Assembly (NCBI GenBank): GCA_017861415.1
Contig: JAGFXS010000023.1
Coordinates: forward strand, 1 to 11,836
Source: Bacillota bacterium
GTDB taxonomy: Bacteria; Bacillota; Clostridia; Oscillospirales; Oscillospiraceae
Direction: 5' to 3'
DNA: 11,836 nucleotides
The notes beneath the pieces were generated by a model. That model made no database searches, was not told the DNA's origin, and saw nothing but the letters and a program-made list of their open reading frames with translations. The position numbers and the translations under genes were made by a program. Position 1 is the first letter of the stretch. Every line of letters starts with the position of its first letter. Below are positions 1 through 11,836 of the stretch, in pieces.

Positions 1-560
1 AAATCCAAGTCAATGCTATTAATGGGATGGACGATGCGCCGGGTCAGATAGGAGGCCATTAAAATTGCCGCCAGACCCACAACTACTACAATGGTAAGCA
101 TGAGTCCAAACAACTGGTCAAAGGAGGCCAGCACGCTGGCAGTGGTGTCGGACACTCGTAGAATACTGCCGTCGGCCAGCAGAACCGCATAGTAGTAGGT
201 TTGCTCCCGCAATGTATCGGAAAAGCGGATGTCTTCGCCGTAACCCTGGTTCAATGCGGATTGAATCTCCGGACGGTTGAGATGGTTTTCCATGTTGGAC
301 GAATTGCGACTGCTGTCATAGAGAACCATCCCATCAGGAGAGATAAGGGTTAGTCGATGGCCGGTGACGGCCTTCAGTTTGCTCAGCTCGGATATTTCCC
401 AGTTGGAGAGCTCGCTCTGCAGGGATAGACAATTGCTTCGCACCTGAGACTTTACCGCAGAGAAAGAGTCCTGATAAGCGGCAAGGGTAATCAAGGCAGC
501 GGTAATTAAGACTGCTGACACCGACAACAACGCGGTGGAGAAAAAGATTTTACGTCTCAT
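1..560 (-). CDS. phoR: PhoR-type sensor histidine kinase, N-terminal part (cut by the window edge)
   Basis: Membrane sensor kinase expected to phosphorylate the response regulator encoded just upstream. The frame is open from an ATG at 560 to the left edge (186 codons). Visible parts are a short basic N-terminus, TM1 (about residues 6-28), an extracytoplasmic PAS-like sensor (about 30-148), TM2 (about 151-171) and the start of HAMP (RRIVHPINSIDLD). The sensor carries the pattern usual in Firmicute PhoR-like kinases: SPDGMVLYDS (74-83), then NMENH and RPEI (89-99), an R.S pair at 112-114, YYYA and a terminal LRVS. The ATG overlaps the end of the regulator gene by 11 bp and has GGGAG seven bases upstream, inside that gene. 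The DHp and catalytic domains lie outside the window, so kinase activity cannot be verified. The phosphate role is inferred from operon context. It is the last visible gene of the pst operon. Confidence 0.9.
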   Translation of the reverse strand, partial: MRRKIFFSTALLSVSAVLITAALITLAAYQDSFSAVKSQVRSNCLSLQSELSNWEISELSKLKAVTGHRLTLISPDGMVLYDSSRNSSNMENHLNRPEIQSALNQGYGEDIRFSDTLREQTYYYAVLLADGSILRVSDTTASVLASFDQLFGLMLTIVVVVGLAAILMASYLTRRIVHPINSIDLD

Positions 561-1230
561 GAATGTCTCCCAGCCGATACCCCACGCCTCGCACGGTTTC
601 AATGTACTGCCCGAAAGTGCCCAGCTTGGATCGCAGAGAGCGAATGTGTACATCCACTGTGCGGCTTTCTCCGTCAAAGTCCTGCCCCCAGACGCCGGAC
701 ATGATCTGGTCACGAGTTAACACCATACGGGGGTGCCGCAGGAAAAAGACCAGCACATCAAACTCTTTTGGGGTTAGGGTTAGGGGGGTGCCGTCAAAAG
801 TAACCAGGTAGCGGGGAATGCTTACAAAAAGGGAACCCAGGCGAAACTCACCGGTTTGGGGCGATGGCTCTGTGCGGCGTAGCAGGCTTCGCACTCTGGC
901 CACTAGCTCCATCATCCCGAAGGGCTTGGGCAGATAGTCGTCAGCGCCGGCGTCCAACCCCTGCACCTTATCGTATTCAGTTCCCTTTGCGGTGAGCATC
1001 ATTACCGGCAGACGGGCGGTATCCGGGGAGGAACGAAGCTGCCGCAGAATGGACAGGCCATCATCACCCGGAAGCATAATGTCCAACAGAACCAGTTGAG
1101 GGCGTCGTCTTTCCATAGCCATCCAGAATTTTTGGCTATTGTCAAAGCCCTCGGCCTCCATGCCGGACTGATTCAAGGTATACACAACCAGATTTCGGAT
1201 GCTGGTTTCATCCTCCAGAATGTAGACCAT
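550..1230 (-). CDS. phoB: PhoB/PhoP-type response regulator (OmpR family)
   Basis: Transcription factor of 226 aa, activated by phosphorylation and expected to control the phosphate regulon (called PhoP in Bacillus, PhoB in Proteobacteria). The receiver domain (about 1-115) has the acidic pair E6/D7, phospho-acceptor D50 in LLDIMLP, the switch T80 in LTAK and the conserved K102 in PKPF. A winged-helix DNA-binding domain follows (about 125-222), with LTPKEFDVLVFFLRHP, SRTVDVHIRSLRSKL and the closing ETVRGVGYRL. The frame stays open upstream to 1341, but the 1230 start is preferred because the receiver fold begins MVYILEDE there and AAGGAGAG sits about eight bases upstream. That start overlaps the 3' end of phoU by 23 bp. 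Phosphate specificity is inferred from its place between phoU and a PhoR-type kinase. Confidence 0.93.
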   Translation of the reverse strand: MVYILEDETSIRNLVVYTLNQSGMEAEGFDNSQKFWMAMERRRPQLVLLDIMLPGDDGLSILRQLRSSPDTARLPVMMLTAKGTEYDKVQGLDAGADDYLPKPFGMMELVARVRSLLRRTEPSPQTGEFRLGSLFVSIPRYLVTFDGTPLTLTPKEFDVLVFFLRHPRMVLTRDQIMSGVWGQDFDGESRTVDVHIRSLRSKLGTFGQYIETVRGVGYRLGDIHET

Positions 1231-1897
1231 TCTGTGCCTCTCCTTCTTCGCCCTCCATGCGGCGGTCACCGGTGACGGCATAGAGCACCCATTCGGCCAG
1301 GTTTTCCGCATGGTCACCGATGCGCTCAAAATACTTGGCAATCATCAGCAGATCCAGGCATTCTCCGCCAAGATTTCCGTCTTTGGTGAGGACTTCAATC
1401 AGTTCTCCCCGTACAGTGGTGAATAGATTATCCACCACATCATCATAGCGAATGACCGTCCAGGCCTGGTCATAGTCCAGGCGGACGAAGGAGTCTATGC
1501 TGTCTGTGAGCATCTTGATGGTTGCCCGGGCCATATCGGCGATGTGAACGTCACGCTTTACGGGGCTGTCCACCATAAAGGCGGACAGCTCGGCAATGTC
1601 CGCCGCCTGGTCGCCGATGCGCTCCATATCGGTGATCATTTTCTGGGCCGCTGTAATTTTGCGCAGATCGCTGGCGACGGGCTGCTGACGCAGGAGCAAG
1701 CGGACGCAAAGCTGTTCGATATCCCGCTCCATGATATTAATGTCCTGCTCTAGAGAGAGCGCGCGCTCTCGCAGGTCGGCATTGCCGTCCAGAAGTGCCT
1801 TTGTGGCGCAGGCAATGGCGTCTTCGCACAAGGCGCCCATGTAAATGAGGTTGTTATGCAAAGTTTCAAGTTGCTGTTCAAACTGGTGACGCATCAT
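1208..1897 (-). CDS. phoU: PhoU, phosphate signalling and transport regulator
   Basis: Cytoplasmic helical-bundle protein of 229 aa that links the Pst transporter to the sensor kinase and damps Pho signalling when phosphate is plentiful. It has the two PhoU repeats, each with the E..(R)..D...D/N metal-binding helix: [11 protein letters not shown] (about 90-100) and [11 protein letters not shown] (about 189-199). The C-terminal tail after YAVTGDRR is low-complexity and acidic, and it is coded by the stretch that overlaps the next gene, so it may be an incidental extension. The first ATG (1897) overlaps the pstB stop in an ATGA arrangement, and GGGAGG lies upstream. A second ATG directly follows, so the start is uncertain by one codon. 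Function is assigned from family motifs and from its place after pstB. Confidence 0.95.
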
Positions 1898-2646
1898 CCA
1901 AACCTCCCTGTGATGTAGTCCTCCGTGCGCTTGTCTTTTGGCATGGAGAAAATATTCTCGGTGCTGTCGTACTCGACCATGTCACCCAGCAGGAAGAAGG
2001 CTGTTTTGTCGGAGATGCGCACCGCCTGCTGCATGTTGTGAGTGACGATAACTATAGTATACTGTAAACTCAGCTCACTCACAAGCTCTTCTATTTTGGA
2101 GGTGGAAATGGGATCTAAAGCGGAGGTGGGTTCGTCCATGAGAAGAACCTCCGGCTCCACTGCCAGAGCGCGGGCAATACAGAGGCGCTGCTGCTGGCCG
2201 CCAGAGAGGCCCAGAGCGCTCTTTTTCAGTCGGTCTCGGGTCTCCTCCCAGATGGCGGCGGAACGAAGGGCACGCTCCACAATTTCGTCCAGCTGCACTT
2301 TGGAGCGGATATTATGGGTGCGGGGACCAAAGGCGATATTGTCATAAATGCTCATTGGGAAGGGGTTCGGGCGTTGGAAGACCATGCCCACCCGCTTGCG
2401 GAGGAGGCTTACATCCAAATCCTTGTAGATATCCACACCGTCAAGAAGAACCTTGCCGGTGATTTTGCAGTCCTCCACCAAGTCGTTCATCCTGTTGAGG
2501 GATTTCAGCAGAGTGGATTTTCCGCAACCTGAGGGGCCTATAAAGGCGGTGACCTCACCCTTCCCAATTTGCATGTCGATATTTTTTAGGGCCTGAAAGC
2601 TGCCGTAATGCAAATTCAGGTTTTCAATCACAATCTTTTTATCCAT
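1894..2646 (-). CDS. pstB: PstB, phosphate ABC transporter ATP-binding subunit
   Basis: ATPase that powers phosphate import through PstC/PstA. With the start at 2646 it is 250 aa, the normal family length. All nucleotide-binding motifs are present: Walker [10 protein letters not shown] (37-45), Q-loop at Q91 followed by [12 protein letters not shown] (typical of PstB), ABC signature LSGGQQQR (147-154), Walker B VLLMDEP (167-173) and the H-loop histidine in VTHN (about 203). The open frame extends to 2673, but the ATG at 2646 has GGGAGG about six bases upstream and begins the normal [16 protein letters not shown]-terminus, so the longer version is rejected. It overlaps the 3' end of pstA by 8 bp and the start of phoU by 4 bp. 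Confidence 0.97.
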
Positions 2647-3475
2647 GGGAGCCTCCCGACATTTTTTTAGCAATCCAGGCAGAAGCGGTGTTAATAAGCA
2701 GGGTCAGAGCCAGCAGGACGACGGCGGTGGCAGAGGCCTGATCCATATAGAGACCCTCGCTGGATAGGTTGTACATATGCACCGACAGGGTGCGGGCGGA
2801 GTCAAAGACACTACTCGGAATCTCTGCCAGGGTGCCTGCGGTAAAGATGAGAGCGGCGGTCTCGCCCACAATACGGCCTACAGCCAGAATAATGCCCGCC
2901 AGAATGCCGGGGATGGCGGCTGGCAGAACGATGGAGAACACGGTGCGAAGGCGACCGGCTCCCAGACCGAAGCTGCCCTCTCGGTAGGAGGTAGGAACGG
3001 CGATGAGAGCCTCCTCTGTGGTGCGCATGATGAGGGGAAGTATCATGATGGTCAGGGTACAGGTGCCGGCCAGCAGAGAGTAGCCCCAGTGGAGGGTGAC
3101 CACAAAGAATATCATGCCGAAAAGACCGTAGACGATGGAGGGAATACCTGCCAAAACCTCCGCTGCAATACGGATGAGTCCTACAATACGGTTGCCGCGC
3201 TTGGCGTATTCTACTAGATAGATGGCGGAGAATATGCCCAAGGGAGCGGCCATGAGGAGGGACAAGCCCGTCATGTAAACGGTGTTGATAAGGGCAGGGG
3301 TAAGAGATACGTTCTCCGAGGTGTAGTGGAGCGCAAAGAGGGAGGGGGTTAGATGGGGAACACCCTGTACCAAAATGTAAGCGATGAGGAAGACCAAGGT
3401 AAGAAAGGTAAAGGTTGCTCCGCAAAAAACCAGAATGCGCAGGAGCAAGGATGCAGGATCCCAGCGTTTTTTCAT
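2639..3475 (-). CDS. pstA: PstA, phosphate ABC transporter permease
   Basis: Integral membrane permease of 278 aa that forms the phosphate channel together with PstC. It has a first membrane segment near 15-36, several further hydrophobic helices, [12 protein letters not shown] (about 109-120) and the cytoplasmic EAA loop [20 protein letters not shown] (about 154-173), which docks the ATPase. A downstream GRIVGET motif (about 200-206) is typical of Pst permeases. The ATG at 3475 overlaps the pstC stop as ATGA, and AAGGAGGG sits upstream. PstA is distinguished from PstC by order and by its RTTEEAL and FTAGT sequences. Confidence 0.96.
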
Positions 3476-4320
3476 GACAAGGCCCTCCTTTTAATGACAG
3501 AAAGAAGGAGGTTGATCAGAAGAATGAAGATGAAGAGCACCACGGCGGTGGCAATCAGCGCTTCCCGGTGAAGATCTGCGGCGTAGCCCATTTCCAGAAC
3601 AATATTGGCAGTCAGAGTTCGAACGCCCTTTGTTATTCCGGAGGGGATAACGGCCTGGTTGCCGGCCACCATAATCACAGCCATGGTTTCACCTACAGCC
3701 CGGCCAATGCCCAACACGATGGCGGCCATAATGCCGGATTTTGCTGCCGGCAATACCGTGAAAAAGACACTGCGCTCGTGGCTGGCGCCCAGAGCCAAGG
3801 CGCCCTCATAATATGAGCTAGGTACCGCGCGAAGGGCAGCCTCAGAAACGCTGATCACCGTGGGAAGAATCATAATGCCCAGTAGAAGAGAAGCGGTAAG
3901 TATGCTCTTTCCGCCGCCAAAGGCGATTCTAATCCAGGGGACTAGGACCACAAGGCCGAAGAAACCGTAGACGATGGAGGGGATGCCCGCCATCAGGGAA
4001 ACGGCAGAAGAAAGAAGACCGTGGAATCGTTTTGGACAGAAACGAGCCAAAAAAACGGCGGTGAGGACACCAAAGGGGACGCCGAATATAATGGCACCCG
4101 CAGTGACAAAGAGGCTTCCCAAAATCATGGGGGCAATGCCAAAAAGGTCATTGCCCGGCTTCCAGCGGGTACCCAATAGAAACTCCAATGGCCCGATTTC
4201 GCCAATGGCCGGCAGTCCGTTGGCGAATAGGAAAAGGCAAATCAGCACGACGCAGAGAATGGAAACGCAAGCAGCCAGCAAAAAGACCACATGCATGACT
4301 TTTTCTTTCAATTGATTCAT
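3472..4320 (-). CDS. pstC: PstC, phosphate ABC transporter permease
   Basis: Integral membrane partner of PstA, 282 aa, slightly shorter than many PstC proteins. It has a hydrophobic N-terminal helix (about 10-33), the periplasmic FLLGTRWKPGNDLFGI segment (about 47-62) characteristic of Pst[20 protein letters not shown] (about 111-129), the EAA loop EAALRAVPSSYYEGALALGA (about 160-179) and GRAVGETMAVIMVAGN (about 206-221). The ATG at 4320 has AAGGAG eight bases upstream. A hairpin lies between it and pstS. It is the first permease gene and the start of the tightly overlapping part of the operon. Confidence 0.96.
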   Translation of the reverse strand: MNQLKEKVMHVVFLLAACVSILCVVLICLFLFANGLPAIGEIGPLEFLLGTRWKPGNDLFGIAPMILGSLFVTAGAIIFGVPFGVLTAVFLARFCPKRFHGLLSSAVSLMAGIPSIVYGFFGLVVLVPWIRIAFGGGKSILTASLLLGIMILPTVISVSEAALRAVPSSYYEGALALGASHERSVFFTVLPAAKSGIMAAIVLGIGRAVGETMAVIMVAGNQAVIPSGITKGVRTLTANIVLEMGYAADLHREALIATAVVLFIFILLINLLLSVIKRRALS

Positions 4321-4340
4321 AGGGTGAACTCCTTATGGGA

Positions 4341-4366
4341 ATAAGCCGGAGCGAAGGGCTCCGGCC
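4341..4366 (-). terminator. Hairpin between pstS and pstC (attenuator or mRNA-stability element)
   Basis: An 8-bp perfect stem, GCCGGAGC (4345-4352) against GCTCCGGC (4358-4365), with a 5-nt loop. On the minus strand it is followed by TTATTCCC, a poor U-tract, so complete termination is unlikely. Such hairpins after a binding-protein gene are known in ABC importer operons to terminate partially or to protect the upstream mRNA, giving more binding protein than permease. That role is inferred here. The hairpin ends shortly before the pstC ribosome binding site. Confidence 0.6.
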
Positions 4367-4380
4367 TGCTTGGGGCGTCT

Positions 4381-5268
4381 TTACTTAAGGTCGCTCCACA
4401 AGGTGGAAACGCCGGTGTAGATGTCCTTGACCTGGGTGTTCGTCAGGTCGCTAATGGGGTTATCCAGATTTACGATGACAGCGATGCCGTCCATGGCGAT
4501 GGCCTGCCCCACAAGTCCCTTTTCAATCTCGCTGTCTTTCAGATCGCGTGAGGCCATACCGATATCGCAGATTCCTTCATCCACGGAGTTCATGCCTGTG
4601 GTGGAATCGCTCTGCTGAACTTCAATACTTGCATTGGGATTAATTGCCGTGTAGGCTTCCTTCAAGGCCTCCATGACCGGGGTGACGGAGGAGGAGCCTG
4701 CTACGACAACCTTGCCGGAGGGGAGGCTGCCGGCATAAGCGCCGGTATTTTCCACGGGGACGTAGCCTTTGGATGCTACGACGGCCTGACCATCAGCACT
4801 AAAGATGAAGTCCAGGAAATCCTGTGCAACGGGGCTTACATCACCCTTGGTGGCGACGTTGAAGGGACGGGCAATGGCATAAGTGCCATCAACAATGCTT
4901 TCTGCGCTGGGAGCCACACCGTCAATGCTCAAGGCCTTCACGGTATCGTTAAGGGAGCCTAAGGAGATATAGCCGATGGCACTGGGGTCTCCGGCGACGG
5001 AGGTCATCATGACGGAGGTGCTGTTGGTGATCTCTGCAGTCTCAATGGTCATATCTTCCTTGTTACCTTTGGCGTCCTTCACTTCGACGCCAAAGAGCTC
5101 AATGAAGGCACCGCGGGTGCCGGAACCGTCTTCGCGGGAAATGACAGTGATAGGCTGGTTTTCTGTGTCTGTGCCGCCGGTTCCGGCATCTCCGCCGCAG
5201 CCGGCCAGAGTCAGAAGGGAAAGGGTAGCGGTCAGGACCACACCAAGAAGTTTTTTGCTTTTTTTCAT
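4381..5268 (-). CDS. pstS: PstS-like phosphate-binding lipoprotein with circularly permuted domain order
   Basis: Extracytoplasmic phosphate receptor for the PstCAB importer, 295 aa. The N-terminus is a lipoprotein signal: KKSKK, a hydrophobic core, then lipobox LAGC with the lipidated Cys24. A short Gly/Thr linker follows. Unusually, the next segment (about 39-172) is what normally forms the second half of PstS: ITVISREDGSGTRGAF (phosphate loop, R45, D47, S49-T51), NSTSVMMTSVAGDPSAIGYI, ARPFNVATKG and a closing GYVPV. After a linker (about 173-184) comes the normally N-terminal half (185-295): KVVVAGSSSVTPVMEAL, QQSDSTTG, DIGMASRDLKDSE, AMDGIAVIVN and VKDIYTG, ending in LWSDLK. Both halves look complete, so the gene is intact but permuted. 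Start 5268 is chosen because GGAGG lies eight bases upstream; an in-frame TTG at 5283 overlaps that site. Identity as PstS is supported by the pstCAB context. Confidence 0.93.
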   Translation of the reverse strand: MKKSKKLLGVVLTATLSLLTLAGCGGDAGTGGTDTENQPITVISREDGSGTRGAFIELFGVEVKDAKGNKEDMTIETAEITNSTSVMMTSVAGDPSAIGYISLGSLNDTVKALSIDGVAPSAESIVDGTYAIARPFNVATKGDVSPVAQDFLDFIFSADGQAVVASKGYVPVENTGAYAGSLPSGKVVVAGSSSVTPVMEALKEAYTAINPNASIEVQQSDSTTGMNSVDEGICDIGMASRDLKDSEIEKGLVGQAIAMDGIAVIVNLDNPISDLTNTQVKDIYTGVSTLWSDLK

Positions 5269-5283
5269 TTTTATTTCCTCCAA

Positions 5284-5379
5284 ACGATCATTTTAAAAGA
5301 TATTCTTGTAGCTTGACCTTAGTTTACGCGTTTAAGGTAAAGAAAATCATCGTGGCTATGTTAAACTTAAGTAAAATGT
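5284..5379 (-). promoter_or_regulatory. pst operon promoter region with PhoP/PhoB-box-like repeats
   Basis: AT-rich gap between the degV terminator and pstS. On the minus strand it holds TTTTAC and TTTAAC spaced 11 bases apart start to start (5360-5376), resembling the direct repeats bound by PhoP in Firmicutes. Nearer the gene is an inverted repeat, ACCTTA/TAAGGT (5316-5338), which overlaps a nested TTTAC/GTAAA pair (5323-5341). No good -35 box is visible, as expected for an activator-dependent promoter. Possible -10 boxes are TACAAG (5305-5310) and TAAAAT (5290-5295). Control by the operon's own regulator is inferred. Confidence 0.45.
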
Positions 5380-5426
5380 AAAAAAATAAACAGCTGCCCT
5401 TTTTTGATTCAAAAGAGCAGCTGTTT
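5380..5426 (-). terminator. Rho-independent terminator of degV
   Basis: On the minus strand a 10-bp arm AAACAGCTGC pairs with GCAGCTGTTT (5388-5397 with 5417-5426). A further six inner pairs (one G-U) leave a loop of about seven bases. The hairpin is followed at once by ATTTTTTTA. This is a strong intrinsic terminator lying 22 bp after the degV stop, and it insulates degV from the pst promoter. The same stem on the plus strand is followed only by TTTTGC, and no plus-strand gene arrives there. Confidence 0.9.
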
Positions 5427-5447
5427 TGCGGAAAATATAGGCGGAAT

Positions 5448-6293
5448 TTATTGCTTAAGTACAGCAAGTCCCAATGCCTGTGGGCCAGAATGGCTACAGA
5501 TAGTACAGCCAGCGTAATAAAGTATGTCTGACGTAAGTCCGGCGTGTTGCTGGAGTTGATCCGTTGACAGGGTAATCCAGTGAGCGGGACAACTGGTGGT
5601 GACAAGAAGGGTTTTCTCAGCAATGATATCACTTCGATCTTTTAGTCGATCCTGCAAAAACTGAGGAAGAACCTTTTCCATAACGCCGCGGTATTTTTTA
5701 GCCATGCCCAGAGTCCCGCCCTCATGCACTGCAATAGAGGGTTTCAGGCGTAGCAGATTTGCCCCCAGGGCGGCAATTCCGGAGCAGCGTCCTCCTTTAT
5801 GAAGGTAGGTGAGCTGGTCAATGAGGAAGGTAAACTCCACCCGTTTTGCCATTTCAGTTAGAATATCGGCAATTTCTTTGGGGTTTCGGCCTTCCTCGAT
5901 CAGCCGCTTCGCTTCCAGAACCAGAAGGCCGGAGCCTACGGATATATTCTGGGAGTCCACCAGGTACACATTGGGAAAGCCTTCTGCTGCTAGCTTTGCG
6001 TGGGTATAGCAGGAAGAAATGCCGGAGCCTAAGGAAATATGAATGACTGCGTCGTGCTGGTGGGAAAGGGCGGAAAAACGTGCGTGATAGTCCGCCACAT
6101 TGACTGCGCTGGTGGTAGGGACGGGTTCGCCCTGGGCCACCCGCCGGTAAATATCTTCAGGAGTGATATCCACACCATCTAAGTACTCCACACCGTTTTG
6201 GATAATGGTGAGGGGGATTAGTTCAAAGGGGATGGGGGACAGGGCATCCTTTGGCAGGTCGCAGCTGCTGTCCGCCGTCACAATGATCGACAT
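5448..6293 (-). CDS. DegV family (fatty-acid-binding, FakB-like) protein
   Basis: Soluble lipid-binding protein of 281 aa. Family members such as FakB bind a fatty acid and present it to the kinase FakA, which makes acyl-phosphate for phospholipid synthesis. The sequence shows the N-terminal IIVTADSSCDLP (3-13), YLDGVDI (38-43), the PTTSAVN stretch (59-65), HISLGSGISSCYTHAKLAA (85-103) with the ligand-contacting serines, LVDSQNISVGSGLLVLEA (111-128), TYLHKGGRCSG (162-172) and LKPSIAVHEGG (183-193). The ATG at 6293 has TAGGAGG upstream. The gene has its own promoter and terminator, so it appears monocistronic. No fakA is visible. Fatty-acid specificity cannot be read from the sequence. Confidence 0.93.
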   Translation of the reverse strand: MSIIVTADSSCDLPKDALSPIPFELIPLTIIQNGVEYLDGVDITPEDIYRRVAQGEPVPTTSAVNVADYHARFSALSHQHDAVIHISLGSGISSCYTHAKLAAEGFPNVYLVDSQNISVGSGLLVLEAKRLIEEGRNPKEIADILTEMAKRVEFTFLIDQLTYLHKGGRCSGIAALGANLLRLKPSIAVHEGGTLGMAKKYRGVMEKVLPQFLQDRLKDRSDIIAEKTLLVTTSCPAHWITLSTDQLQQHAGLTSDILYYAGCTICSHSGPQALGLAVLKQ

Positions 6294-6345
6294 AATGCCT
6301 CCTAAAACAAAATGAAATTCACAGCATCTAGTAAAGCCTCAACAT

Positions 6346-6351
6346 ATTATA
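6346..6351 (-). promoter_or_regulatory. degV promoter -10 box
   Basis: A perfect TATAAT on the minus strand, about 52 bases upstream of the degV ATG. The -35 region at the usual distance (TGGCTA) matches poorly, and it falls in the AAAACCT/AGGTTTT inverted repeat region, so an activator or repressor may act there. Position and consensus support the call; no start site has been mapped. Confidence 0.5.
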
Positions 6352-6463
6352 GTATAAAACCTAGAAGATAGCCAGAGGTTTTTGGATTACTTTAAAAAAT
6401 AGCGGCTACATAAACATTTTCACTACAAATGAAAGAAAACAAAAAGATTTTTAGGAATCCTCT

Positions 6464-6491
6464 TTGCAAATGAGTGAATCTATATTAAAAT
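6464..6491 (+). promoter_or_regulatory. Probable promoter of the pyrH operon
   Basis: TTGCAA (6464-6469, 4 of 6 to the -35 consensus) and TAAAAT (6486-6491, 5 of 6 to the -10 consensus), with a 16-base spacer. Transcription would begin near 6498, leaving a short leader of about 35 bases that ends in an AGGAGG site before the pyrH ATG. The leader has no visible riboswitch or attenuator. Confidence 0.5.
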
Positions 6492-6532
6492 AGACCACAG
6501 CGAATTTTGAACAATCAGCAGGAGGACTTCGT

Positions 6533-7261
6533 ATGGATGAACCGAAGTATAAACGCGTGCTCTTAAAAATTAGCGGGGAAGCACTGGCAGGAGAAGCTTC
6601 TCGCGGCCTTGATTTTGGCGTTATTGGACAGGTGTGCGATGTCATTTGTGAATGCACCAAGCGCGGAGTTGAGGTGGGCATGGTGGTAGGCGGCGGCAAT
6701 TTCTGGCGCGGCTTGAAGGACGGCGGCGACAGAATGGAGCGCTCCCGCGCGGACCATATGGGCATGCTGGCCACCGTGATCAACTGTCTGGCCGTGGCCG
6801 ACGTGCTAGAGCAGAAGGGTGTGGAGGTTCGGGTACAGACTGCCATCGAAATGCGCTCCGTGGCGGAACCATATATCCGGTCCAAGGCCATTCGTCACCT
6901 GGAAAAGGGGCGCGTAGTGATTTTCGGAGCGGGCACCGGTAACCCTTATTTCTCCACCGATACGGCCGCGGTACTCCGGGCAGCGGAAATCGGTGCGGAC
7001 ATTATTCTTCTTGCCAAAAACGTAGACGGGGTATACAGCGCTGACCCCAAAGTGGATCCCAACGCAGTGAAATACGATAGCATAACCTATGACGATGTGC
7101 TGGCAGGGCATCTGCAGGTGATGGATTTCACCGCCACATCCCTGTCCATGGACAACAAGATCCCCGTGATGCTTTTTGCCTTGAAAGATCCCGGAAACAT
7201 CCTGCGGGTCGTGATGGGCGAACAAATCGGTACCATTGTGAAGGAGGACGTAAAACCATGA
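6533..7261 (+). CDS. pyrH: UMP kinase
   Basis: Cytoplasmic amino-acid-kinase-fold enzyme of 242 aa that converts UMP + ATP to UDP + ADP for pyrimidine nucleotide, RNA and cell-wall sugar synthesis. Motifs include [15 protein letters not shown] (7-21), [13 protein letters not shown] (48-60), [18 protein letters not shown] (73-90), [18 protein letters not shown] (129-146), [15 protein letters not shown] (159-173) and the late [13 protein letters not shown] (196-208). Length and motif order are normal for PyrH. The start is supported by AGGAGG seven bases upstream. It is the first gene of the plus-strand operon, and its stop overlaps the frr ATG (ATGA). Unlike in many bacteria, rpsB-tsf do not sit directly before it. 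Confidence 0.98.
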
Positions 7262-7812
7262 AAGAGATATTTCAGGAATATGACCACAAGATGAAGAAGA
7301 CCATCGAAGTGGTGATGAGTGACTTTGCCGCGGTTCGGGCAGGTCGAGCCAATCCCGCTGTACTGGATAAGCTCTCTGTAGAGTATTACGGTGTTGATAC
7401 CGCACTCCAGCAAGTGGCTGCCATCGCTGCGCCGGATCCACGTACCCTGACCATCCAGCCCTGGGACGCATCCCTGCTGAAGGCCGTTGAGAAAGCCATT
7501 CTCACCTCAGATCTAGGGCTTAACCCCCAGAATGACGGCAAGATTATTCGGTTGTCTTTCCCCCAGCTAACGGAGGAACGCCGCCGTGATCTCACCAAAC
7601 AAGTGAAGAAGTACGGCGAAGGTGGCAAGGTTGCTATCCGTAACATCCGTCGGGATGCTGTGGAGAAGTTCAAGGCCATGAAAAAGAAGTCGGAAATCAC
7701 CGAGGATGACCTGAAGGAATACGAGAAGGAACTCCAGGACATGACCGACAAGCGCTGCCGGGAAATCGACGAGCTGACTGCGAAAAAAGAAACTGAGCTA
7801 CTGGAGCTGTAA
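7258..7812 (+). CDS. frr: Ribosome recycling factor
   Basis: Splits post-termination ribosomes together with EF-G, freeing subunits for a new round of translation. At 184 aa it is the standard family length. Conserved stretches are [20 protein letters not shown] (26-45), [14 protein letters not shown] (about 73-86), the [11 protein letters not shown] segment and the [22 protein letters not shown] helix (about 107-128), then a long charged C-terminal helix rich in Lys and Glu. The ATG overlaps the pyrH stop by 4 bp, with AAGGAGG about ten bases upstream. The pyrH-frr pairing is one of the most conserved in bacteria. Confidence 0.98.
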
Positions 7813-7820
7813 GGAGACCT

Positions 7821-8567
7821 ATGGCATTTTGGAAGAGAAGAGGGCAGGCGGGAACTTTGGACAGAGGGCGCCTGCCCCGCCATGTGGCCATTATCATGGA
7901 TGGAAACGGGCGGTGGGCCAAGGGTCGCGGTCTGCCCCGTACGGCAGGGCACGCCGCCGGAGCGGAGACCTTTCGTACCATAGCAACCCACTGCAAACAC
8001 TTAGGAATTCCGTACCTCACGGTGTATGCTTTCTCCACGGAGAACTGGAAGCGTCCCAAGGAGGAGGTTTCCGCCATTATGGGCCTTCTGGAGAAGTATC
8101 TTCTGGAGGCCGCCGAAAAAATGGCAAAGGATAAAATTAGGCTCCGCTTTTTTGGAGATCTAACCCCCTTATCCCGCGAGCTGCGCCTGCTCTGCGATGA
8201 GACGGAGCGGATTTCTCGCAGCTATGAATCGGAAATCCAGGTGAACATTTGCCTTAATTACGGAGGCAGGGATGAAATCCTGCGAGCCGCCAGGGCTTGT
8301 GCCCGGGACTGCATGGATGGAAACCTGGATCCGGACAATTTTACGGAAAAAGACTTGGCCCGACATCTCTACTCCAAGGATATCCCAGACCCGGATCTGG
8401 TGATACGACCCAGCGGAGAGGTTCGCATTTCAAATTTTTTACTTTGGCAGTCCGCCTATGCGGAATACTATTTTACGCAGGTACTCTGGCCGGATTTCAC
8501 CCCGGGCGAACTGGATCGTATTCTTGGGATATATCAACGCAGGCAGCGTAGATTTGGGGGCGTGTGA
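7821..8567 (+). CDS. uppS: Undecaprenyl diphosphate synthase (cis-prenyltransferase)
   Basis: Adds isopentenyl units to farnesyl-PP to make the C55 carrier lipid for peptidoglycan and wall polymers; 248 aa. It shows the catalytic HVAIIMDGNGRWA (21-33, Asp27), GLPRTAGHAAG (37-47), FSTENWKRP (71-79), the NICLNYGGRDEI segment (142-153) and RPSGEVRISNFLLWQSAYAE (196-215). The last motif has Pro where many homologues have Thr (RTSGE), a small variation that is unlikely to change function. AAGGAG lies four bases before the ATG, a rather short spacing, eight bases after the frr stop. UppS uses precursors made by the dxr/ispG pathway encoded downstream. Confidence 0.97.
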   Translation: MAFWKRRGQAGTLDRGRLPRHVAIIMDGNGRWAKGRGLPRTAGHAAGAETFRTIATHCKHLGIPYLTVYAFSTENWKRPKEEVSAIMGLLEKYLLEAAEKMAKDKIRLRFFGDLTPLSRELRLLCDETERISRSYESEIQVNICLNYGGRDEILRAARACARDCMDGNLDPDNFTEKDLARHLYSKDIPDPDLVIRPSGEVRISNFLLWQSAYAEYYFTQVLWPDFTPGELDRILGIYQRRQRRFGGV

Positions 8568-9382
8568 GGTTGAGAAATCGAATCCTGGTGGCCTTGGTTG
8601 GCTCTCCGATTTTATTGTGGGTGCTGCTGGGGCTACCGCCAATTTTTACGCCCGTATTTGTAGCTCTGCTGGCCATGGTGGCCTCTTATGAGGCAAGTCG
8701 TGCCTTGGGAGTGAAACATCTGCGTATACAGGCCTACTCTATGGTTTTGTCTGCGGGTATACCTTTCTGGGTCTATTTCGGGGAAGGGCAGCTTCCGGCT
8801 CTTATTGCCATGCTCCTCTATGTGGGATTGCTTTTTATGGAGGCGCTTCCCAGCAATTATGCCGTTAAAGTGAGCTCCATTGGGGCAGTGTTCTTTTTCT
8901 CTGTGTTTATCCCCTATTTTCTTTCGTCTTTGGTGCGCATCAATGCCTTGCCTCTGCGACTTTGCTACATTCTAGTGCCGCTGATCATCCCCTTCATGTC
9001 TGATGCCTGCGCCATGTTTTCCGGCATGCTGTTCGGAAAGCGAAAGCTGGCTCCGGGGATTTCCCCCAAAAAGACCTTGGAGGGTTCCATTGGTGGTCTT
9101 GCAGGCGGTACGCTGGCCGCCTTGCTTTACGGCTTGATTATAGGCCATATCATGGGGGTGGAGGTTCACTTTGCGGCCCTGCTGATTTATGGCTGCTTGG
9201 GCAGCGCGGTCTCGCAGATAGGAGATCTGTCCTTCTCCTATGTAAAGCGGCAGAACGGGATTAAGGATTTCGGCGACATATTTCCCGGACACGGCGGTGT
9301 GTTAGATCGCTTTGACAGCGTCATCTTTTGCGCACCTTTTATTGAAGTGTTGATTATGGTGCTGCCTGCCTTTACCTCTTGA
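8564..9382 (+). CDS. cdsA: Phosphatidate cytidylyltransferase (CDP-diacylglycerol synthase)
   Basis: Polytopic membrane enzyme of 272 aa that makes CDP-diacylglycerol from phosphatidate and CTP, the branch point of phospholipid synthesis. About seven to eight hydrophobic segments are visible. Catalytic regions are SDACAMFSGMLFGKRKLAPGISPKKTLEGS (about 146-175) and the family signature in SQIGDLSFSYVKRQNGIKDF followed by PGHGGVLDRFDS (about 217-252). The start is taken as the GTG that overlaps the uppS stop (GTGA). A TTG six bases later (8570) is an alternative and is better spaced from GGGGG at 8556-8560, so the first two residues are uncertain. Confidence 0.96.
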   Translation: MRLRNRILVALVGSPILLWVLLGLPPIFTPVFVALLAMVASYEASRALGVKHLRIQAYSMVLSAGIPFWVYFGEGQLPALIAMLLYVGLLFMEALPSNYAVKVSSIGAVFFFSVFIPYFLSSLVRINALPLRLCYILVPLIIPFMSDACAMFSGMLFGKRKLAPGISPKKTLEGSIGGLAGGTLAALLYGLIIGHIMGVEVHFAALLIYGCLGSAVSQIGDLSFSYVKRQNGIKDFGDIFPGHGGVLDRFDSVIFCAPFIEVLIMVLPAFTS

Positions 9383-9400
9383 CAGGCGAGGAATATTCTG

Positions 9401-10561
9401 ATGAATAAAACGATTTCAATTTTGGGGTCTACAGGGTCAATTGGAACCCAGACCTTGGAAGTGGCTGCCTCCTGCGGCATTCCTGTTGCGGCTTTAGCTG
9501 CCCACCGAAATGTGGCGCTGCTAGAGCGTCAGGCCCGTGCCTTCAGACCAAAACTTGTGGCGGCGGCGGATGAGACCGCCGCCGCTGATTTGAAGCAGCG
9601 TCTTCGGGATACGGACATCCGTGTGGTTTCAGGGTCAGAAGGTATTTTAGAGGCGGCCTGCTTTGATGAAGCCCAGACAGTGGTTACAGCCATGGTGGGT
9701 ATTGCCGGTCTAGTCCCAACACTGGCCGCCATCGGGGCGGGGAAACGAATTGCCCTGGCTAACAAAGAGACTCTGGTTTGTGCCGGTCCACTGGTGATGG
9801 CCGAGGCCAAAGCTCGAAATGTGGAGGTTATCCCCGTTGATTCGGAGCACTCCGCCATATTTCAGTGTTTGCAGGGCAGCCGCGGACGGGAAGAGGTGAA
9901 GCGGCTGCTGCTCACGGCATCCGGTGGCCCCTTTTTCGGATATACGAGGGAAGCTTTGGAACAGGTTACCCTGGAACAAGCCCTGAAGCATCCCAACTGG
10001 ACCATGGGCGCGAAGGTGACCATTGATTCCGCAACCTTGATGAATAAGGGACTGGAGTTTTTGGAGGCAATGTGCCTGTTTGGGCTACCGCCGGAAAAAA
10101 TTTCCGTTTTGGTGCATCGGCAGAGTATAGTTCACTCTCTGGTGGAATACTGTGATAATGCGGTCTTAGCGCAATTGGGAACTCCAGATATGCGGGTTCC
10201 TATCCAGTACGCCCTGACTTGGCCACGGCGCGTACCGGGGCCGGCTACGGAGCTGGACCTTCTCTCTTGCCCGCCTCTGACCTTCCAGCAGCCGGATACA
10301 GAGGCCTTCCCTTGCCTGGCTCTGGCCATCCACGCAGCAAAGGAGGGTGGAACGCTGCCTGCCATCATGAACGGAGCCAATGAGATTGCTGTGGCGCGGT
10401 TTTTGAAGGGGGAGATCGGCTTTCTGGATATTCCGCGGCTGGTGGAGCGAACCATGGCACTTGTGCAGCCGGAGAAGGCGGTTACCCTTGAGACCGTATT
10501 GGAGGCAGATGCCAGCGCCCGACGCGCCGCGTCGGAGGAGCCTGCCCGTTATTTGAGGTGA
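9401..10561 (+). CDS. dxr: 1-deoxy-D-xylulose 5-phosphate reductoisomerase
   Basis: NADPH- and metal-dependent enzyme of the non-mevalonate (MEP) isoprenoid pathway, converting DXP to 2-C-methyl-D-erythritol 4-phosphate; 386 aa, normal length. The nucleotide-binding loop ILGSTGSIG (7-15), ALANKETLV (118-126), the metal-binding D147-S-E149 in PVDSEHSAIFQ, LTASGGPF (171-178), HPNWTMGAKVTIDSATLMNK (197-216) with the E219 ligand, and VLAQLGTPDMRVPIQYAL are all present. The substrate loop reads VHRQSIVHS where E. coli has HPQSVIHS; this is probably a clade difference. The ATG follows cdsA after 18 bases and has GAGG nine bases upstream. Its product feeds uppS. Confidence 0.97.
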   Translation: MNKTISILGSTGSIGTQTLEVAASCGIPVAALAAHRNVALLERQARAFRPKLVAAADETAAADLKQRLRDTDIRVVSGSEGILEAACFDEAQTVVTAMVGIAGLVPTLAAIGAGKRIALANKETLVCAGPLVMAEAKARNVEVIPVDSEHSAIFQCLQGSRGREEVKRLLLTASGGPFFGYTREALEQVTLEQALKHPNWTMGAKVTIDSATLMNKGLEFLEAMCLFGLPPEKISVLVHRQSIVHSLVEYCDNAVLAQLGTPDMRVPIQYALTWPRRVPGPATELDLLSCPPLTFQQPDTEAFPCLALAIHAAKEGGTLPAIMNGANEIAVARFLKGEIGFLDIPRLVERTMALVQPEKAVTLETVLEADASARRAASEEPARYLR

Positions 10562-11634
10562 ATGGTTTGCTAGTCTATATTATCCTGGCGATATTAATGT
10601 TCGGCGTACTCATTGCAGTCCATGAGTGGGGGCATTTCATTGCTGCAAAGCGACTGGGTGTCCGGGTCAATGAGTTTGCCATCGGAATGGGTCCTGCTCT
10701 CTGGTCCAAGCAGAAGGGGGAGACCTTGTACTCCCTGCGGGCCTTTCCCATAGGCGGATTCTGCGCCATGGAGGGGGAGGACGAGGATACGGCGTCGCCG
10801 GACTCCTTTGCTAAGAAATCCTTGTGGAGGAAGCTGGTGATTCTGTGTGCCGGGTCCTTTATGAATTTCGTAGCGGGACTGTTGCTGCTGTTGCTGCTCC
10901 TTTCTCAGAGTACCGGCTTTGCTGTGCCGGTCATTCAGAGTTTTGCTGAGGGATTCCCCGGGCAGAGCGAGGAAGGATTATTGCCTGGAGACCGTATCCT
11001 CGCCGTAGATGGACGAAAAGTACACATCTATAGTGATGTTACCCTGTATTTTAACCTCTCCAATGGTGAGACCATGAATCTGCTCATCCAGCGAGACGGT
11101 CAGGTGATGGAGAGAACAGATTTTCCTTTAAAACCCCGGGAATATATGACTAACGGCCAGTCCGTGCTCCGCTATGGAATCAATTTTCAATCCGTAGTGG
11201 CCACCCCCGGCCGTGTGCTTAGTGAGACTTGGGGGACTGCGGGTTACTTTGCCCGCTCCGTCTGGCTGGGGCTACAGATGTTGGCCAAAGGCGATGCTGG
11301 CATGAAGGATCTGGCTGGCCCTGTGGGGATCGTCTCCATGATCGGGGAGACCAGCGCCCAGGCGGGTGCCCAAAGCTTAATGGCAGGAGTCATGAATCTC
11401 TGTTATATCATTGCCCTGGTGGCGGTGAACCTGGCCATTATGAACATGTTGCCCATTCCAGCCCTAGACGGGGGCCGTGTGTTTCTACTATTGGTGGGGA
11501 AGGGATACCACCTGCTCACCCGCCGGGAGCTTAATTCCAAGTATGAAGCCTATATCCATGCCGCGGGATTTGTGCTTTTGATCGGCCTGATGGTGATAGT
11601 CACCTTCCAGGATGTTATCAAGCTGGTGAGGTAG
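10558..11634 (+). CDS. rseP: RseP/RasP-type site-2 intramembrane zinc metalloprotease
   Basis: Membrane protease of 358 aa that cuts transmembrane segments, typically of anti-sigma factors or leftover signal peptides. The zinc site HEWGH (22-26) lies in the first membrane helix, followed by [11 protein letters not shown] and [15 protein letters not shown] membrane helix rich in Leu (about 103-115) precedes a PDZ domain, whose clearest piece is [17 protein letters not shown] (about 141-157). The C-terminal part has AGPVGIV, then [12 protein letters not shown] with the third metal ligand D304 in the LDG motif. The GTG start overlaps the dxr stop (GTGA) and has only a weak ribosome binding site, so it probably depends on coupling. 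The substrate cannot be told from the sequence. Confidence 0.96.
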
Positions 11635-11639
11635 ATGCT

Positions 11640-11836
11640 ATGACAAAACAAATGATGGTGGGTGGCGTTGCCATAGGCGGAGGCGCTCCGGTAACCATTC
11701 AATCTATGACGAATACAAACACAGCGGAGGTGGAGGCGACGGTGATGCAGATCCGTCGCCTTCAAAGCGCTGGCTGTGAGATTGTCCGGGTGGCAGTGCC
11801 GGACAAGGCCTCGGCTTTTGCCATAGGCGCCATCCG
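11640..11836 (+). CDS. ispG: 4-hydroxy-3-methylbut-2-en-1-yl diphosphate synthase, N-terminal part (cut by the window edge)
   Basis: Iron-sulfur enzyme (GcpE) of the late MEP pathway that converts methylerythritol cyclodiphosphate to HMBPP. Only the first 65 codons are present. The N-terminus [18 protein letters not shown] followed by [19 protein letters not shown] and [12 protein letters not shown] is diagnostic of IspG (the VQSMTNT and [10 protein letters not shown] blocks). The ATG at 11640 has GAGGT about seven bases upstream, just after the rseP stop. An ATG at 11635 is rejected because it meets a stop after one sense codon. The cysteines binding the 4Fe-4S cluster lie beyond the window. 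It is the second MEP gene in this operon after dxr. Confidence 0.95.

Follow-up and report, generated by a model that had tools for sequence, protein, structure and literature searches.

A PstS-type receptor with its two halves in swapped order: a natural circular permutant within a Pst operon of a Bacillota bacterium

PstS is a textbook binding protein, and the pstS gene described here encodes a form of it with a rearranged chain. The gene lies in a stretch of 11,836 nucleotides from a Bacillota bacterium (assembly GCA_017861415.1, contig JAGFXS010000023.1, positions 1 to 11,836; hereafter the window), and its product is a natural circular permutant, in which each half of the chain is present once, the order of the halves is swapped and the old ends are joined. 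We hold with high confidence that the best explanation of this protein is a lipid-anchored phosphate receptor of a Pst importer with a naturally circularly permuted topology. A reversed order of the two halves had been proposed from the DNA letters alone (the original prediction), and profiles, canonical PDB chains and isolate genomes all agree with it. Throughout, 'half' denotes a half of the PstS chain and not a lobe; in canonical PstS the first lobe is formed by the beginning of the chain together with its extreme end, as described for CpPstS (PMC12421899). The gene and its parts are arranged as follows:

4381..5268, minus strand: pstS, circularly permuted, 295 amino acids (aa); signal peptide with lipobox, spacer, C-half, linker, N-half
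4753..5154, minus strand: C-half (canonically second), residues 39-172, holding the R45-E-D47-G-S49-G-T51 ligand loop
4717..4752, minus strand: 12-residue linker, residues 173-184, between the canonical C- and N-termini
4387..4716, minus strand: N-half (canonically first), residues 185-294, holding the GSSSVTP loop (191-197) and S222

The open reading frame (ORF) is intact, running from the ATG at 5268 to the stop codon at 4383-4381 (295 codons plus the stop); the coordinates and residue numbering first given fit this protein, and the strand, which had been left out, is minus. The chain begins with a lipoprotein signal peptide carrying the lipobox LAGC and Cys24, continues through a spacer into the C-half, and ends one residue past the N-half (residue 294).

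Profile analysis revealed both halves with significant scores, each profile matching in two swapped stretches as had been suggested for a permuted protein. TIGR02136 scored 193 bits, its best stretch aligning residues 186-294 with profile positions 40-155, and PF12849 scored 121.8 bits, with residues 180-293 on profile positions 5-125. The canonical PDB chains 4q8r, 4gd5, 1twy and 4exl likewise aligned with the window PstS in two pieces of swapped order. As the E values per piece were 9e-27 to 3e-17 for the first three chains and about 1e-9 for 4exl, this piecewise alignment is not due to chance. In contrast, 4h1x aligned as a single end-to-end piece (E about 3e-61). This crystal structure, released in 2012, is that of SP_2084 of Streptococcus pneumoniae TIGR4, named PstS 2 (PstS2). 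A search with half models confirmed that neither half is duplicated. The swapped order was also found in the isolates Anaerotignum lactatifermentans DSM 14214, Eubacterium barkeri VPI 5359 and Clostridium aminobutyricum DSM 2634; a canonical order in another isolate had been named as the sign of an artefact.

The predicted structure of the window PstS was a confident model that, taken whole, equals 4h1x. A sequential alignment over both lobes had been named as the finding that would speak against a permutation, but the window model covered only about half of canonical PstS in this way, whereas the same aligner covered 239-242 residues for canonical PstS of the same genus. In the comparison with the canonical control, 4h1x was not among the 50 matches listed, an absence that amounts to no test. 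Taken separately, residues 33-172 of the model superposed on 1twy (rmsd, root-mean-square deviation, 2.6 over 139 residues) and residues 181-295 on 9l8j (rmsd 2.9 over 115 residues). The confident model, together with the co-linear crystal structure of a homologue, shows the ordinary two-lobed PstS fold to be kept.

We then located the breakpoints using the half models. With the C-half at residues 39-172 and the N-half at 185-294, the linker is residues 173-184, bearing out both the proposed junction of the old termini at about this place and the proposal that the new ends open where the halves meet. Among 355 proteins from three similarity searches (the best 120 listed of each, hence biased toward the queries), 344 had the order C-N, five C-N-C, four N-C-N and two a lone C-half. 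These 344 and a further 108 from loci (four of them the window's own gene) gave 452 C-N proteins, of which 437 had a linker of 12-14 aa and 415 had the N-half ending 1-3 residues before the C-terminus. Of 33 canonical ORFs, three of them repeats, 29 had five residues between the halves. The short canonical joint and the permuted breakpoints together show that the new ends sit in the joint that links the halves in canonical PstS. At this point the canonical chain makes its first passage from one lobe to the other, a hinge as in CpPstS (PMC12421899). A lipobox-like motif, by a simple pattern, was present in the leader of 95/100 permuted and 27/30 canonical proteins. What the permutation mainly changes is the entry of the lipid tether, which precedes the R45-T51 loop rather than the GSSS loop and would now be at the first inter-lobe crossover.

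To understand how the permuted receptor relates to its permease, we compared the PstC partners. In a quick tree thinned from 95, a single branch separated all 53 PstC proteins beside permuted receptors from 21 others (Shimodaira-Hasegawa-like approximate likelihood ratio test, SH-aLRT, 96), and a careful tree with outside canonical rows grouped the permuted partners together (5/5; bootstrap/SH-aLRT 100/95). Eight permuted-partner PstC proteins were chosen for comparison; the window PstC shared 65-73% identity with seven of them (70% with that of Treponema) and 50% with the eighth, from the divergent permuted locus L012, as against 41-50% with six canonical-type PstC proteins of its own genus. 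By these trees the PstC partners are shown as one clade, and the permuted receptor goes with a separate lineage of Pst operons. The identities and trees also imply more than an alteration of the resident operon of this species: a separate operon lineage is present, which most simply would have arrived by horizontal transfer; the lineage may likewise have moved between bacterial families and into Treponema.

A single origin of the permutation is favoured by these PstC trees, though not proven. In PstS trees, for which the halves were aligned apart and put in the same column order, the permuted rows lay on one side of one branch both with 95 rows (support 61/82, bootstrap not settled) and with 48 rows excluding distant outgroups (74/61); the window PstS belongs to the clostridial branch, and the 4H1X protein comes from Bacilli. 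A tandem duplication with subsequent loss of the outer halves may have produced the permutation, in a single event or very few. Several points weigh against a single ancient event reached by this route. When two distant outgroups were included, the divergent permuted rows L012, L013 and L127 separated from the others in the PstS tree. Forcing all of the permuted rows into one clade cost 1.74 log units (approximately unbiased, AU, test p-AU 0.14), so that one clade is neither rejected nor shown. Finally, two kinds of candidate forerunner had to be set aside. The first were the N-C-N-C tandem proteins L125:1105-2697 and L126:1105-2736 (minus strand; 531 and 544 aa), each a single ORF directly before a PstC-like gene with the ligand loops kept in both copies, from two species of one Bacillota genus. 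They show the duplication step, the first of the usual duplicate-and-trim route, but were rejected as ancestors of the permuted clade; as they group with canonical rows, they illustrate the route only. The second were the C-N-C (P0011, P0013, P0017, P0034 and P0262) and N-C-N (P0218, P0232, P0332 and P0333) proteins of about 400-440 aa, which were rejected as evidence for intermediates without being disproved. A single source ('ena') supplied all nine, each on one contig, and no such form occurred among the ORFs of the 141 fetched loci. P0013 and P0017 share an identical first part and then diverge, and the metagenome protein P0279 has the same permuted PstS part followed by a seryl-tRNA synthetase-like part (PF00587). 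These proteins are probably chimaeric assemblies.

Independent permutations at one joint, with the L012/L013/L127 type separate, are an alternative that we consider unlikely, though still worth reckoning with. In favour of this alternative, the L012/L013/L127 type stands apart on a long branch in the tree with distant outgroups. However, the breakpoints are identical, the PstC proteins beside L012 and L127 cluster with those of the remaining permuted receptors at the support given above (100/95 and SH-aLRT 96; no PstC was found for L013), and the AU test does not reject one clade. The three proteins constitute a divergent permuted subtype, 38-41% identical to the window PstS, in which a GSGTG loop replaces DSTTG and a Glu follows the position of S240. 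As for the wider scenario, in which one ancient permutation founded a second Pst importer lineage with a hinge tether, an adapted PstC and an operon spreading as a unit among Bacillota and into Treponema, we put it forward tentatively, at somewhat short of an even chance. If it holds, a canonical and a permuted receptor could not be freely exchanged between permeases.

Next, we asked whether the permuted protein retains the ligand site. The phosphate contacts of Escherichia coli PstS are T10, F11, S38, D56, R135, S139, G140 and T141 (PMC10846223), and those of the N-half were mapped by eye. The expected ligand-loop residues are conserved: R45, S49, G50, T51, S194, S222 and S240 were kept in 111/111 permuted rows. 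The residue equivalences first suggested are consistent with this conservation, except that D47, one of them, is not invariant (97/111). The position of E. coli Asp56 is presumably Ser240 in the window PstS, on the basis of a by-eye alignment to the E. coli sequence; Ser240 also occurs in 26 of 29 canonical rows of the same subfamily. The window PstS would hold inorganic phosphate (Pi) between the lobes through the same loops and pass it to PstCA.

Transcription of the Pst2 importer of S. pneumoniae, which includes PstS2, is constitutive, and a part in the uptake of Pi is implied for it (PMC4913102). Two observations from that system weigh against a phosphate role: the Pi uptake rate was about halved only in the double pst1-phoU1 pst2-phoU2 mutant, with the single mutants unaffected, and Pst1 was required for optimal uptake at low Pi (PMC4913102). 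It is nevertheless quite improbable that the window PstS binds something besides phosphate, such as another oxyanion, and that the operon name misleads. The serine at the presumed Asp56 position and a substrate known by sequence inference would allow this, but that serine is common to canonical subfamily members, and the canonical chain 4gd5 is described as having bound phosphate; moreover, phoU, phoB-type and phoR-type genes lie downstream, and the pneumococcal relative is itself linked to Pi uptake.

The homologue surveys bore out the original mention of similar proteins in gut Clostridia. Except for loci read directly, a genome was counted as permuted if one match spanned both halves. Own genome included, 10 of the nearest 40 genomes were permuted, and the 16 genomes of the same genus comprised three permuted, nine with canonical two-piece matches and four without a match at E <= 1e-10. 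The phylum sample gave 14/398 permuted, own included, plus two N-C-N-C (E <= 1e-25); a phylum survey around a Phascolarctobacterium genome returned the same match coordinates and was not counted as independent. In the class sample (completeness at least 90% save for the window's own genome), 41/196 were permuted, own included (E <= 1e-30), 39 spanning both halves and two being truncated frames that begin with leader and C-half; canonical types fell mostly below this threshold, so that no ratio follows. A further scan showed the order C-N in 80/80 of the best 80 of 535 loci. Carriers include Anaerotignum, Lactonifactor, Blautia hansenii, E. barkeri, C. aminobutyricum, Thermoclostridium caenicola and Phascolarctobacterium, as well as about a dozen Streptococcus species, Bavariicoccus, Trichococcus, Carnobacterium and Granulicatella. 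Outside the phylum, the 382-kb plasmid pTS2 of Treponema saccharophilum (L147) carries a complete permuted pstSCAB-phoU set. In a phage collection, five unannotated faecal 'Bacteriophage sp.' records of 5-8 kb (H19-H23) gave one-piece permuted PstS matches; these are probably bacterial contigs, and a phage origin was set aside.

That the swapped order reflects misassembly or a frameshift, or that the gene is a piece of a longer one of canonical or duplicated form, can practically be dismissed: the window does come from a fragmented metagenome-assembled genome (152 contigs, 72.87% complete) and some long PstS-like database proteins look chimaeric (e.g. P0279), but the ORF is complete, the independent isolates refute it with identical order, breakpoints and operon, single-contig genomes have matches spanning both halves, the Treponema plasmid is complete and circular, and the solved structure 4H1X is co-linear with the window PstS.

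Natural permutation of a tethered ABC-transporter binding protein has a parallel in Tp0684/TpMglB-2 of Treponema pallidum (proposed 'Type Ic / Cluster Bc'), a type that occurs in treponemes and Gram-positives and retains both its fold and its ligand binding (PMC4990184). TpMglB-2, however, has a type I sugar-binding fold in which three strands of one lobe were moved and a fourth crossover was added (PMC4990184), whereas the window PstS is a PstS-type receptor cut at the joint of the halves, with whole halves exchanged. We take the PstS permutation as a separate event and TpMglB-2 as a parallel, not its family. The idea that permutation avoids tether strain close to the binding residues (PMC4990184) is not obviously helped here, because both ends run straight into a ligand loop. 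The 4H1X protein is a co-linear permuted chain, differing as a Bacilli relative from the clostridial-branch window PstS. Canonical PstS (TIGR02136/PF12849; 4gd5, 4q8r, 1twy and, as fold, E. coli 2abh) shares both halves, the ligand loops and the operon role, but differs in half order, lipid-tether position and PstC lineage. The tandem N-C-N-C proteins also combine PstS halves within a single ORF upstream of a PstC-like gene, and their internal C-N stretch equals the permuted order, but they consist of repeated canonical units with a 4-residue junction (by the half models) and group with canonical proteins.

The permutation also affects annotation. The window PstS, at 193 bits and not co-linear, falls below the NCBI curated TIGR02136 cut-off of 206.6, as do five further permuted proteins (179-202), while four canonical ones (210-264) lie above it; as its score is low because of the permutation, it was filed as a permuted relative rather than a regular TIGR02136 member. 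Since linear profiles split permuted PstS and all six tested scored below the cut-off, pst operons may seem to lack pstS. The Treponema and Monoglobus permuted genes are annotated merely as 'substrate-binding domain-containing protein', whereas three canonical genes from the same collection are named phosphate receptors; the gap is incomplete, as some permuted records bear a phosphate name (e.g. P0116 and P0123). Circular permutation of binding proteins is already known from TpMglB-2, and a permuted PstS structure has been public since 2012. No paper describing permuted PstS was found in the part of the open PubMed Central literature searched; 'permut' and '4H1X' are absent from the main text of PMC12421899 and PMC10846223, and 'permut' from that of PMC4913102. 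A swapped-half PstS is common, yet without a description in the papers searched, and the operon lineage, its breadth and the annotation gap may be new, although no search was aimed at each separately. Both topologies within one genus provide a clean system for the effect of tether position and chain order on folding, binding and permease docking; for Treponema MglB-2 this question was posed and left without an answer. The N-C-N-C proteins, for their part, display the duplication step expected for such permutations.

The window pstS lies inside a pstCAB-phoU operon, as expected of a PstS, and is followed on the same strand by pstC, pstA, pstB, phoU and the phoB-type and phoR-type genes. Its surroundings are as follows:

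3472..4320, minus strand: pstC, permease, of the PstC clade going only with permuted PstS in the rows compared
2639..3475, minus strand: pstA, permease
1894..2673, minus strand: pstB, ATPase; start codon not refined
1208..1897, minus strand: phoU
550..1341, minus strand: phoB-type response regulator; coordinates are those of the ORF, within which the actual start codon probably lies
3..713, minus strand: phoR-type sensor kinase; open ORF cut by the window edge, named from place and sequence only
5388..5426, minus strand: terminator-like hairpin 3' of degV, between degV and pstS
5448-6293, minus strand: degV, upstream of pstS

As originally described, pstC follows pstS, starting 60 bp past its stop codon, and the upstream DNA is noncoding: 179 bp without an evident gene, holding the degV terminator, precede pstS. 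A promoter scan found no promoter. In the best 80 of 535 loci, PstC came next after 78 of the 83 permuted pstS copies, a second permuted PstS after two, neither within 1.5 kb after two, and the contig end after one. Of the 26 of these genomes that were tested, 25 gave no match at E <= 1e-12 besides the permuted gene; distant canonical types would escape this threshold. T. caenicola has a canonical PstS besides its permuted one, and genome G023 carries both types. Two permuted PstS genes per locus occur in L050, L062, L068, G553:C12 and G641:C14, next to each other in all but L068, which has one highly divergent copy. The source genome also encodes, on contig C4 and outside the pst operon (L001:1483-3045), a 520-aa protein that begins with a hydrophobic, probably multi-span region and ends in the one further PstS-like domain of this genome, in canonical order; by eye, its neighbours look AzlC-like and HIT-like.
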